Below, piece by piece: positions 30,131 to 34,309 of a DNA stretch of 34,309 nucleotides. Where the stretch lies: positions 1-34,309 of the forward strand of contig JAJDAG010000021.1 in assembly GCA_029262005.1 (NCBI GenBank), given 5' to 3'. The notes under the pieces are model-generated. The model searched no databases. It saw nothing but the letters and a program-made list of their open reading frames with translations, and was not told where the DNA came from. The DNA is from Candidatus Zhuqueibacterota bacterium (GTDB lineage Bacteria > Zhuqueibacterota > Zhuqueibacteria > Oceanimicrobiales > Oceanimicrobiaceae). The first letter of the stretch is position 1; every line of letters starts with the position of its first letter. Position numbers and translations under genes: made by a program.

Positions 30131-31342
30131 ATGAAAGTACTGATAGCTGACGACGATGTGGATACACTGCGCCTGGTCAAGAGCTGCATAAAAAAGTGGG
30201 GTCACGATGTTATTGCTGTAAGCGACGGTGCCCAGGCTTTGAGCGTTCTTAAATCAAAGAATGCGCCTTCCCTGGCTATTCTTGATTGGAATATGCCAAA
30301 AGTCGATGGGCTCGAGGTCATTCGCCGCCTTCGCTCTGAAGATGCGGATAATCACGTTTATACCATTCTTTTAACCGCTAGAACTGAAAAACAAGATCTG
30401 CTTCTGGGGCTCAATTCGGGCGCAGATGACTATATTCGTAAACCGTTTGATCGGGAAGAACTCATCGCACGTTTGCGTGCGGGTCAACGCACTGTTCAAC
30501 TCGAACAGGAGCTGATAAAGCAAAATAAATTATTGTCCTCGGTCAACGGTGAGCTTGAAATAGCGAACGAGCGTTTGCAAAAAGATTTTGAAATTGCAGC
30601 TACGTTTCAGCAGTCATTGCTGCCGAAAAATTTACCGAAAATACCCGATCTGAGTATCGACTGGTTGTACAAACCGTGCGATGAACTCGCCGGAGACATG
30701 TTGAACATCTTCTGGCTTGACAAGCAACATCTTGGCCTCTACCTGTTGGATGTGAGCGGACATGGTGTGGCTTCTTCTTTCTTGACTGGAACGGTGAGCC
30801 GGTTGTTGACGCCGATTGGCGGGCAGTCATCGCTGGTGCGAACAAAAGGCAATGGTGCTATTGGCAATCGCCTGGTTTCTCCAGCAGATGTTATCACGCA
30901 ACTGAATGAACAATTTTATTTTGACCAGGAAATAGGGCATTATTTTACTATCATTTATGCTGTTTTTGATACTGTTTCGCATCTATTCCGCTTTGCAACA
31001 GCCGGGCATCCCGGTCCCATTGTTGTGGGCGCTGAAAAAGCGCCATCTGTAGTTGAAATGAACAGTTTTCCTATCGGATTTAATAAAGAGGCGAATTACA
31101 AAAACAAGGATATGAGCATTAACAAAGGCGAGCGGCTCTATCTGTATTCTGATGGCATCACCGAGGTGGCAAACAAACAAAATGAACTTTGGGGCGCTAA
31201 CCGTCTTGGGGAGGCTTTAAGTCGGGGACTCGGCAGTTCAATTAAGGAATCACTGCAATATGCTGTTAAGCTGGCTGAGCAATGGTCCGAGGGAAAAATC
31301 GACGACGATATCTCTTTGCTAGCCGTTGAAGTCCATGGCTAA
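30131..31342 (+). CDS. Receiver-PP2C (RsbU/SpoIIE-type) serine phosphatase
   Basis: An N-terminal receiver (D7-D9 acidic cluster, phosphoacceptor Asp52, KPF at the switch Lys) is joined by a helical linker (about 122-170) to a SpoIIE/PP2C phosphatase domain. The phosphatase metal motifs are seen as AGDMLN, LDVSGHG, TAGHPGP, LYSDGITE and DDDISLL. Such proteins dephosphorylate anti-sigma factor antagonists in partner-switching stress circuits when phosphorylated by a kinase. No STAS or anti-sigma gene is in the window. The gene stands alone and converges on the barrel gene with a 26-bp gap. Confidence 0.94.
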   Translation: MKVLIADDDVDTLRLVKSCIKKWGHDVIAVSDGAQALSVLKSKNAPSLAILDWNMPKVDGLEVIRRLRSEDADNHVYTILLTARTEKQDLLLGLNSGADDYIRKPFDREELIARLRAGQRTVQLEQELIKQNKLLSSVNGELEIANERLQKDFEIAATFQQSLLPKNLPKIPDLSIDWLYKPCDELAGDMLNIFWLDKQHLGLYLLDVSGHGVASSFLTGTVSRLLTPIGGQSSLVRTKGNGAIGNRLVSPADVITQLNEQFYFDQEIGHYFTIIYAVFDTVSHLFRFATAGHPGPIVVGAEKAPSVVEMNSFPIGFNKEANYKNKDMSINKGERLYLYSDGITEVANKQNELWGANRLGEALSRGLGSSIKESLQYAVKLAEQWSEGKIDDDISLLAVEVHG

Positions 31343-31368: not shown

Positions 31369-32985
31369 TCAGAAACTCACACCAATTTCCATTGACAGTT
31401 GTTTTGATTTCGTGAATTTATCCAGGTATTGGCGGTAGTTGGCAGAAAGAAAAAAACGCTTCATAAAAGAGTAGTGTCCCTGCATTTCAACGTAGTAACT
31501 CTTTTTGGTTTGACCGGCCGTTTGGTAGATATAGCCTCCGCTACCCAAGGTTACCAACAATTTTCTTCCTAAAGGCAGACGATAGGTAAAAGTCGGCCGG
31601 TACGCAGTTGTAAATTCCGTGGAAACATGCGCGAGGCGCGCCGAAACTGAGTGCCCCTGAAATGGGAATCGTCGAATACCTAAGAAATATGACGAGGAAA
31701 CCGTGTTCGGAGTGTGACCCTCTTGAAAGCGTACGAACAAATTCGCTCCCAATCTTATGTTGGCCGGTAGATTCAAACTGAGTCCGGTACTCAGGCCTTT
31801 GCGCACAACGTCATCAAACAGACTGTCCGGCGTGTTTATTGTGTTCAGTGTACGAACATTTTTTCTTGCATCATAAGAAAAGTTAAGTGAAATTGCGTCG
31901 GAAAGATGAAGATTGGCAGTCAGATAAATGTTTGAAAATGTGAGGGACTTGCCTGCGGCAGCTCTGCGCCACCGTCGGTTCAAATCGATTTCCACACTTT
32001 GATACAGAGAAATTCTGTTTGCCAGTGTGTAGTTGTTTTGTAAATAAACAAACTCGCGATTGACTGTTCCGTTCTCTGAGCTCGCTGAAAATGCAACCGT
32101 TGTGGCAAACCTTTGGCGGGCATAAGAACCTGTTTCCAAGGCCAGAAATGCACCGTATTTGTTTCTTTTGGAGTTAAAGGCGGATGTCTGAAAATTGGGT
32201 TCCATACCGGCTGCCACTCCAACTCGAAAATGTGCACCGAGTCCTGTAGAAATATAGACACCATCAATGAGGCCAATGCCACGAATGTGGCGCGAATAAA
32301 CCCTGCCTATGCCGAAGCGCACTGCGGAGTTTTTAGGTGCATAGGATAGACAGATTTCAGAAACACGATGTACCCATTCGTCCCCGCGGAGTGAGTAGCC
32401 GGAGGAATATGAGCGGTTATAAAAACGCGAGCGCTGGCGCAAACGAAACTCCATTCCTGTCCCCAGAAGATTCTTAATTTTTAACCGCCCGCTCATACTG
32501 GGCTGGAAAGAAGACAAACGCATACCGCCATTGGCATCCTGCAGATAACTTTGAATTGAATAATATCCCTGAAGATGATTTGCCGCCTTCTTTTTGGTTT
32601 TTCGGGATACGCCTCTGCGCACTTTTTGTCGGGATTTCCTGACAGGTTGGCCTTCGCGTGAGTGCATTTCGGCTGAAAAATTAATATGTGGCAACACCAC
32701 TTTGTCCCCGATTTCAATTTTGAACATTGAGCGTATGACCCGAGCCGCAGTAGATTTGCTGGAAAGGTGTGTTATGACAACAAAGGCGCCGATCTGGCCA
32801 TCGTGAATAACTTTGAGCGTATCCCCCACTAAAAGTCCTTCACTTTTTCCGGCATTTACATAAACAGCATCTTTGGTGATATACTTCACAATAGGCTGCT
32901 TTTTTGATATTTGCTGACCATATATCGGCTGTCCGGAAAACATAATGGAACTTATAAGAAGCAGTGCTGAGTTGAAACGCATCAT
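31369..32985 (-). CDS. Outer-membrane beta-barrel protein downstream of multiheme cytochrome
   Basis: A signal peptide (ALLLISSIMFSGQPIYG) is followed at about 30-100 by a small beta domain resembling FlgT-type or SH3-like modules (AVYVNAGKSEGLLVGDTLKV). A basic linker (about 113-135) leads to a region of alternating strands and aromatic girdles (about 140-538) that ends in Phe (MEIGVSF), the usual terminal residue of outer-membrane barrels. AAGGAG lies 7 nt before the ATG. The gene starts 15 bp after the cytochrome stop, so the two are almost certainly cotranscribed. A role as an outer-membrane partner of the cytochrome is inferred from position. I find no CxxCH sites in it and recognise no named family. 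Confidence 0.8.
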   Translation of the reverse strand: MMRFNSALLLISSIMFSGQPIYGQQISKKQPIVKYITKDAVYVNAGKSEGLLVGDTLKVIHDGQIGAFVVITHLSSKSTAARVIRSMFKIEIGDKVVLPHINFSAEMHSREGQPVRKSRQKVRRGVSRKTKKKAANHLQGYYSIQSYLQDANGGMRLSSFQPSMSGRLKIKNLLGTGMEFRLRQRSRFYNRSYSSGYSLRGDEWVHRVSEICLSYAPKNSAVRFGIGRVYSRHIRGIGLIDGVYISTGLGAHFRVGVAAGMEPNFQTSAFNSKRNKYGAFLALETGSYARQRFATTVAFSASSENGTVNREFVYLQNNYTLANRISLYQSVEIDLNRRWRRAAAGKSLTFSNIYLTANLHLSDAISLNFSYDARKNVRTLNTINTPDSLFDDVVRKGLSTGLSLNLPANIRLGANLFVRFQEGHTPNTVSSSYFLGIRRFPFQGHSVSARLAHVSTEFTTAYRPTFTYRLPLGRKLLVTLGSGGYIYQTAGQTKKSYYVEMQGHYSFMKRFFLSANYRQYLDKFTKSKQLSMEIGVSF

Positions 32986-33000
32986 ATTAAATCTCCTTGG

Positions 33001-34309
33001 TCAATCATCGGCTTTACCATCGGGGTGACAGTTGTAACAAGCGCTACTTTGGTAAATGTAATTATTGACCCCCCGGTGCTCGTCATCCATATCTTGTTTA
33101 TTGTGCTCATGACAGTTCAGGCAAGAGAACACTCTGTAGTTGTTGGAATTTGTATGGCAATCAGCGCAGGCACTCCACTCGCCATTGTGTTCCCCTGAAT
33201 AAATGGGAAAATAATCCGCGTCGTGATTTGCAAAACTTCCTTTTTTGCCATCGGGATGACATTGCAGGCAGTCGTTGCTGTTGTAGGAATAACCCGGGAA
33301 CCCATTGTGCACCTGATTCATGGCAGATTGTCTGTGCTCGTGACAGTTCAGGCAGGAAAAGACGCTGTAGTTATTTGGATTGGTGTGACATTCCAAACAT
33401 TCACTCCATTCATTATTATGTGTTCCTGAATAAATTGGAAAATAATCCGCGTCGTGATTTGCAAAACTTCCTTTTTTGCCATCGGGATGACATTGCAGGC
33501 AGTCGTTGCTGTTGTAGGAATAACCCGGGAACCCATTGTGCACCTGATTCATGGCAGATTGTGAATGTTCATGGCAAGTCAGGCAATCGAAGATTTTACG
33601 GTTGCTTTGGTCTGTGTGACACTCGAGGCAGTCATCCCATTCATTGTTGTGCTTGCCGGAGTAAATCGGGAAATACTCGGTGTCGTGGTCACGAAACTCA
33701 GCTTTCTCACCGGTCGGGTGACAGAACAGGCAGCTTTCGCTGTCAAAAGCGTAGTCCGTGATGCCGTTGTGCTTGGGATCAATTTCCGACTGAGCGTGCT
33801 CGTGGCAGGTCAGGCAGTCATACACTTTTCGGTTGCCGGTTTGCGTGTGGCATTCAGCACAGTCACTCCAGGCATGATTGTGCTCTCCTGAATAAATTGG
33901 GAAAAACTGCATGTCATGTTCAGCGAATTTTTCTTTTTTACCATCGGGGTGGCATTCAAAGCATTTCGTGCTATTGTACGCATAGTCGGGAATACCATTG
34001 TGTTCCGAATCCATTTCCGACTGTGAATGTTCATGGCAGGTCAGGCAGTCGAAGATTTTACGGTTGCTTTGGTCTGTGTGACACTCGAAGCAGTCGTCCC
34101 ATTCATTGTTGTGCTCGCCGGAGTAAATCGGGAAATGCTCTGTGTCGTGGTCACGAAACTCAGCTTTTTCACCTGCCGGGTGACAGAACAGGCAGCTCGG
34201 ACTGTCAAAAGCGTAACCCGTGATGCCGTTGTGTTTTGGGTCCATTTCCGACTGAGCGTGCTCGTGGCAGGTCAGGCAGTCGAAAATTTTACGGTTGCTT
34301 TGGTCTGTG
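33001..34309 (-). CDS. Tandem triheme-repeat multiheme cytochrome c (5' partial)
   Basis: The frame runs off the right window edge; the ATG at 34245 is internal because heme-motif sequence continues upstream of it. The visible 436 residues contain 17 CxxCH heme-attachment sites. They form five 77-residue units, each with three sites in the order CL(T/N)CHEH, then C(x)2CHPxG, then C(x)2CHT, plus a final partial unit with two sites. Each unit also holds conserved His residues (EH, HNG, HD and EHN contexts) that could be distal ligands, and a HFPIYSG-like block. Export and cytochrome c maturation are implied. The layout recalls chained triheme (cytochrome c7-type) domains, but the unit is not one I can name. 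The barrel gene follows 15 bp downstream. Confidence 0.92.
   Translation of the reverse strand, partial: TDQSNRKIFDCLTCHEHAQSEMDPKHNGITGYAFDSPSCLFCHPAGEKAEFRDHDTEHFPIYSGEHNNEWDDCFECHTDQSNRKIFDCLTCHEHSQSEMDSEHNGIPDYAYNSTKCFECHPDGKKEKFAEHDMQFFPIYSGEHNHAWSDCAECHTQTGNRKVYDCLTCHEHAQSEIDPKHNGITDYAFDSESCLFCHPTGEKAEFRDHDTEYFPIYSGKHNNEWDDCLECHTDQSNRKIFDCLTCHEHSQSAMNQVHNGFPGYSYNSNDCLQCHPDGKKGSFANHDADYFPIYSGTHNNEWSECLECHTNPNNYSVFSCLNCHEHRQSAMNQVHNGFPGYSYNSNDCLQCHPDGKKGSFANHDADYFPIYSGEHNGEWSACADCHTNSNNYRVFSCLNCHEHNKQDMDDEHRGVNNYIYQSSACYNCHPDGKADD
33001..34309 (-). repeat. 231-bp coding tandem repeat with 462-bp higher-order period
   Basis: The cytochrome gene is built of 231-bp (77-codon) units. Positions 33206-33331 and 33437-33562 are identical over 126 bp at an offset of 231. 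A second similarity runs at an offset of 462 (for example 33561 onward against 34023 onward), so pairs of units also recur. The array continues past the window edge. Confidence 0.9.

Follow-up and report, generated by a model that had tools for sequence, protein, structure and literature searches.

The window, by which we mean the whole analyzed stretch of 34,309 nucleotides, corresponds to contig C114 of an assembly comprising 205 contigs (98.7% complete). Its source is presumably an uncultured KSB1 bacterium, since family-level relatives match contigs of the KSB1 metagenome-assembled genomes OFTM177 and OFTM356, which Suarez et al. assigned to family CR04bin15. At its end, two genes are encoded on the minus strand: the C-terminal part of a tandem triheme cytochrome, which is cut by the contig end, and an outer membrane β-barrel protein, whose open reading frame starts 15 bp past the cytochrome stop codon (Table 1). 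Convergent to the barrel gene lies a gene for a response regulator with a SpoIIE-type phosphatase domain (positions 30131 to 31342, plus strand). A previous sequence-only reading had recognized at least 17 CxxCH sites arranged in 77-residue triheme units and a barrel gene immediately downstream, and both observations were confirmed. The 435 cytochrome residues contain 17 CxxCH motifs, compared to a mean of 0.245 in shuffles of the same composition, and heme spacing followed a 28/34/15 pattern (77 residues) with no exception. The window cytochrome exceeded the Pfam gathering thresholds of PF02085 (Cytochrom_CIII; 59.9 versus 22.9 bits) and PF14522 (Cytochrome_C7; 47.8 versus 24.8 bits). A search of its repeats against PDB sequences gave no match at E ≤ 0.01, and hence no homology to the polymerizing nanowires OmcS, OmcE, and OmcZ at this threshold. 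AlphaFold2 modeled the last repeat units with low confidence (pLDDT 52).

Table 1. Features of the cytochrome-barrel locus (window coordinates unless prefixed by C36)
Feature	Position	Strand	Remarks and basis
Outer membrane β-barrel protein	31369..32985	-	538 aa; 22 predicted strands, residues 137-537
Disordered basic linker of barrel protein	32578..32694	-	Residues 98-136, net charge ~ +10; AlphaFold2, charge count
N-terminal small β domain of barrel protein	32695..32904	-	Residues 28-97, FlgT_C-like, presumably periplasmic; AlphaFold2, Pfam
Tandem triheme cytochrome, C-terminal part	33001..34308	-	435 aa, 17 CxxCH, cut by contig end
C-terminal cap, conserved	33004..33123	-	CxxCHEH...MDxxH...YxYxSxACYxCHPDGK; alignment, common to relatives
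77-aa triheme unit 5 in window	33124..33354	-	Heme spacing, unit motif
77-aa triheme unit 4 in window	33355..33585	-	Heme spacing, unit motif
77-aa triheme unit 3 in window	33586..33816	-	Heme spacing, unit motif
77-aa triheme unit 2 in window	33817..34047	-	Heme spacing, unit motif
77-aa triheme unit 1 in window	34048..34278	-	Heme spacing, unit motif
Contig-end overlap with C36:1-106	34204..34309	-	94% identity; 6 mismatches precede a run of 70 identical bases
Tandem cytochrome, N-terminal 435 aa	C36:1-1305	-	Signal peptide, 15 CxxCH

The window holds part of a gene and part of a system, the remainder of which is located on another contig of this genome, C36. Upstream extension of the cytochrome gene, as the sequence-only reading had suggested, led to its start on C36 and added 15 hemes. 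Since all nine genomic occurrences of the unit motif CxxCHEH lie on C36 and C114 and on one strand, the two pieces are most simply interpreted as a single gene, with a putative join between the contigs. The 106-base overlap between both contigs probably represents two different repeat copies at the assembly break. If the copies are different units, the protein contains at least 15 + 2 + 17 = 34 hemes; the total drops to 31 if both contigs carry a single copy with sequence errors. The tandem cytochrome is thus a protein with at least 31 and most likely 34 or more hemes. In G002, a genome of the same family, a contig likewise breaks within the tandem cytochrome gene. Besides the present case, contigs terminate within this gene, or within that for the second cytochrome, at no fewer than 14 of the 80 named loci (L049, L050, L056, L057, L059, L068, L076, L079, L081, L097, L104, L111, L113, and L116).

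Upstream of the tandem gene and on the same strand, C36 encodes a 550-aa core cytochrome with 20 hemes, a 292-aa inner membrane cytochrome b (di-heme-b), and a 472-aa flavoprotein with 4Fe-4S and pyridine-nucleotide oxidoreductase domains (L004:4030-5448, G000:C36). The flavoprotein, membrane cytochrome b, 20-heme cytochrome, tandem cytochrome, and barrel thus constitute a five-gene cluster. The core cytochrome, which is presumably periplasmic, weakly matched c3-type and other multiheme cytochromes among PDB sequences, as well as the DmsE decaheme model TIGR03508 (E 4e-11; 42.8 bits versus a cutoff of 192). The membrane protein contains SGxxG and two WX3HX13H motifs; among 83 complete cytochrome b proteins, 82 have the two WX3HX13H motifs and 80 have SGxxG. 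The isoelectric points of tandem, core, and barrel protein (~5, ~9, and ~10, respectively) indicate complementary charges, which we counted toward a putative docking of these proteins, although this pattern is not universal, as the tandem protein of L033 has a pI of 8.4. By eye, the flavoprotein has an apparent N-terminal membrane anchor. The motif of its second cluster is CxxHGxCxxxCP; of 69 homologues in which the motif pair was readable, 68 have a His at the position where a second Cys is usually found, and this His is possibly an unusual Fe-S ligand. Elsewhere in the genome, an 825-aa protein (L119:5980-8457, G000:C40) appeared by eye to combine cyclic-nucleotide-binding-like modules, ferredoxin clusters, and a C-terminal cytochrome b of the same inner membrane protein (IMP) type (weak match, E 2e-11). 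It is flanked by further multiheme cytochrome genes, and this region represents another system, distinct from the five-gene cluster but with a membrane protein related to that of the cluster.

AlphaFold2 modeling of the barrel protein with 28 homologues yielded a mean pLDDT of 86 and 22 transmembrane-type strands. Linker residues 101 to 130 were modeled at a pLDDT of 32 to 41, and the linker charge is positive in most homologues. The FlgT-like N-terminal domain that had been proposed earlier was weakly supported: FlgT_C matched the window barrel with an E value of 0.0025, below Pfam's cutoff, and was matched in 15 of the 28 homologues (best E value, 7e-5). No Pfam or NCBIfam family matched the barrel at cutoff, and no PDB sequence match was found. 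The best PDB folds were the ushers FimD and PapC, and MtrB was absent from the 50 best folds. FimD and PapC are wide barrels passing folded subunits, and the barrel might by analogy serve as an export or assembly pore, with the cytochrome being released or polymerizing outside. However, TM-scores were only ~0.4 to 0.46 at rmsd values of 7 to 15 Å, so that the usher matches look like size matches among large barrels, and an usher-like function deduced from the fold ranking was dismissed on this ground. Moreover, the barrel has 22 predicted strands whereas ushers have 24, neither an usher plug nor chaperone genes were seen, and the protein maps to porins of PCC3-type loci, as described below. 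We therefore regard an export pore as improbable.

PCC3 is a predicted system (He et al. 2017, PMC5566968) consisting of a porin with, in most cases, up to 42 predicted transmembrane segments, an extracellular repeat-rich cytochrome (median of 34 hemes, up to 85), a periplasmic cytochrome with a median of 21 hemes, and a five-helix IMP of ~300 aa that contains SGxxG and two WX3HX13H motifs, a signature of PCC3 and PCC4 (PMC5566968). The cluster described here resembles PCC3 in its layout, with a porin, a many-heme repeat cytochrome, a ~20-heme cytochrome, and a ~300-aa IMP with both motifs. Using hhalign, an alignment of 28 barrel sequences matched 11 PCC3-type porins over 321 columns (probability 98.2%, E 4e-14). 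These porins, from tubeworm-symbiont and other proteobacterial loci, served as proxies for the sequences of He et al., the match covers the barrel part only, and generic barrel similarity may inflate such scores. A stronger point for homology than the score is an invariant GR...G...DG motif, which is in register between both groups. Judged from these alignments, the barrel and the porins encoded in PCC3-type loci are homologues, and the 20-heme core is homologous by HMM to the 21-heme protein of the same loci.

In several respects, the cluster differs from PCC3. Its porin is not very large (~540 aa and 22 strands, with the window protein comprising 538 aa) and possesses an FlgT_C-like domain and a basic linker, whereas PCC3-type porins exceed 800 aa and carry SPOR and TPR domains. 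Core proteins have 20 (or 17) hemes instead of 21, the repeat unit has 77 aa, and the flavoprotein gene is found within the operon but is divergent in PCC3. Furthermore, hosts are KSB1, Zixibacteria, Calditrichota, and others, whereas PCC3 was described from Proteobacteria. Overall, comparison of the sequences suggests that the cluster is probably a deeply diverged variant of the predicted PCC3 and not a separate kind of conduit. The earlier view that it represents a type not yet described and matches no family was hence not supported, given the two Pfam families above cutoff, the PCC3/PCC4 IMP signature, the porin homology, and the PCC3 layout (PMC5566968).

Other known systems were more distant. 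PCC4 (He et al. 2017) has an IMP with the same motifs and, in subgroup II, an Fe-S partner gene, but comprises three cytochromes in the periplasm and lacks a long repeat cytochrome. MtrCAB, MtoAB, and PioAB likewise combine a barrel with a multiheme cytochrome, and the core is weakly similar to the DmsE model; however, no MtrB-like sequence match was found here, the barrel has 22 predicted strands, and 20 plus at least 31 hemes compare to 10 plus 10 in these systems. Consecutive triheme modules in a single chain also occur in the triheme c7 chain of Geobacter (TIGR04257, GSU1996 type), but this model gave no match for the window part and only 15 and 22 bits for the C36 proteins at a cutoff of 40. 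PCCs had previously been annotated in KSB1 metagenome-assembled genomes (MAGs) (PMC10732223), and a 2026 survey of ghost-rock MAGs reported a PCC group 1 with a ~20-strand porin, often adjoined by a ferredoxin-NADP reductase gene (PMC13264449). The accessible portions of both papers do not describe tandem units, a core-wire pair, or PCC3 homology.

Of 63 genomes in the class, 19 contained both barrel and cytochrome b, 3 contained a single one, and 41 contained neither (Fisher p = 7e-13, a value that ignores shared ancestry). Two genomes had the barrel only and are 86% and 73% complete. In a version of the refuting test proposed by the sequence-only reading, cytochrome b lacked a strong barrel match in 1 of the 63 genomes, and this genome contains a distant barrel homologue. 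The gene set recurs with the barrel in barrel-bearing relatives with enough flanking sequence; the exceptions comprised cases at contig ends, a degenerate locus (L031), and a distant barrel (L038). The five-gene set was also detected in named genomes of KSB1, Zixibacteria, Calditrichota, Latescibacterota, Margulisbacteria, and others, whose contigs were searched with the cytochrome b alignment, as the barrel alignment had no conserved stretch. Order and strand of the flavoprotein gene differ among lineages. Although the contig end falls within a repeat, which an assembly artifact could also produce, gene order is kept in many independent genomes and the unit motif is confined to two contigs. 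Chance adjacency was rejected because of this recurring order, and we consider chance neighbors or an artifact practically negligible as an explanation.

Loci of the Lamellibrachia and Escarpia tubeworm symbionts contain homologues of the flavoprotein, the membrane protein, and a 21-heme core, together with a 47-heme cytochrome and an 830-aa porin. Tubeworm symbionts are an organism group for which He et al. 2017 reported PCC3 (PMC5566968), and those of Lamellibrachia and Escarpia are relatives of hosts listed in that study. When a tree was built for the membrane protein, a long branch with full support separated the proteobacterial rows from the others. Proteobacterial PCC3-type loci often had an extra 640- to 690-aa protein encoded beside the flavoprotein gene (L100, L101, L103, L106, L108, L109, L110, and L115), a counterpart of which was not noticed in KSB1 clusters.

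Heme numbers of the two cytochromes behaved differently. In a scan based on automatic ORF calls, which include a few frameshifted or partial genes, core cytochromes mostly had 21 hemes in Proteobacteria and 17 or 20 in other lineages, versus a wide range in complete second cytochromes, up to 62 hemes in a Sedimenticola locus. Within the KSB1 class, tandem proteins have 10 to 43 hemes, with complete genes encoding 28 (G005), 43 (G003), and 31 (G033) hemes and the shortest complete form 10 (L012). In the relatives, an N-terminal domain with a spacing of 32/16/16/34/19/25/35-36 is followed by n units and the cap, with the 28/34/15 spacing being exact, so that length varies by whole units. Units are mostly more similar within a protein (0.64 to 0.94) than between genomes (0.52 to 0.69), as expected from repeated expansion and homogenization. 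In an Acidobacteria locus (L077:10863-14630), a single 1,255-aa, 51-heme protein carries a full core first and repeats with a similar cap last, and a 927-aa, 38-heme protein of Nitrospirae (L084:7189-9972) is apparently a similar core-repeat fusion. Such fusions argue that both cytochromes act as one continuous path.

A wire exposed at the surface would be expected to vary in length by units, unlike a part that has to bridge a membrane gap of set width. In the tandem protein, we saw neither a lipobox nor a surface anchor; its surface exposure is therefore inferred indirectly, and the same finding would suit a periplasmic electron store or bridge, in which the core or the short N terminus of the tandem protein plugs the barrel while repeats grow inward, their number setting the storage capacity. 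The shortest complete form (10 hemes) resembles MtrA-type plugs, and the N-terminal spacing is constant while the repeat number varies, both of which would fit such a store. However, chains of 43 hemes in this class and 62 in the Sedimenticola locus would, if extended, be expected to be longer than the periplasm is wide, and in the fused L077 protein the variable repeats are distal to the core. We consider a periplasmic store rather unlikely.

The proposal that the cytochrome and barrel form an electron conduit was thus strengthened by the conserved five-gene cluster, the near-perfect co-occurrence within the class, and the cytochrome fusions, and a trans-envelope conduit of the PCC3 kind is, in our judgment, the likely function of the cluster. 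For the Fe-S/FAD oxidoreductase on the cytoplasmic side, partners in electron exchange would be NAD(P)H or ferredoxin, as well as the membrane protein, which would use its five helices and two b hemes to pass electrons across the inner membrane to the basic 20-heme periplasmic cytochrome. This core would cross the periplasm and contact the acidic tandem cytochrome, which may dock to both the basic core and the barrel. With its heme sites loaded, the tandem protein would sit in or thread the 22-strand barrel and reach the cell surface, its length changing by gain or loss of 77-aa triheme units.

Since the genome encodes two COX1-type oxidases and a Pfam match to cytochrome bd subunit I, electron flow would be possible both inward and outward. 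The anatomy of the proposed PCC3-like conduit is compatible with inward flow, by which Fe(II), Mn(II), or a partner would donate electrons that end up on quinones or NAD(P)+, a role that has been proposed for PCC3 of iron oxidizers. PCC3 was named from iron oxidizers (PMC5566968), the oxidases mentioned above would be in place, and the flavoprotein could reduce NAD(P)+. On the other hand, KSB1 genomes have mostly been interpreted as heterotrophs, and KSB1 PCCs were annotated as iron reductases in the accessible part of one report (PMC10732223). Inward flow comes close to an even chance in our estimate. We put forward more tentatively, as a possibility on the unlikely side, that the cluster is a self-contained conduit by which NAD(P)H or ferredoxin is connected to the cell exterior, bypassing the quinone pool. 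Here, the Fe-S flavoprotein and the two-heme-b protein would feed a fixed 20-heme span and a single-chain surface wire, the length of which would be tuned by recombination of triheme units.

New here are the spread of PCC3 beyond Proteobacteria, the conserved Fe-S flavoprotein, the FlgT-like porin domain, and the combination of a fixed core with a wire of variable length. The system has been overlooked, since repeats disrupt short-read assemblies and contigs often stop within the repeat gene. The comparison sets the fixed core apart from the length-variable wire, and the conserved flavoprotein suggests a cytoplasmic partner of the predicted PCC3-type conduit. With the same core present in KSB1, Zixibacteria, Calditrichota, Acidobacteria, Nitrospirae, and other lineages, the cluster represents a widespread candidate conduit.
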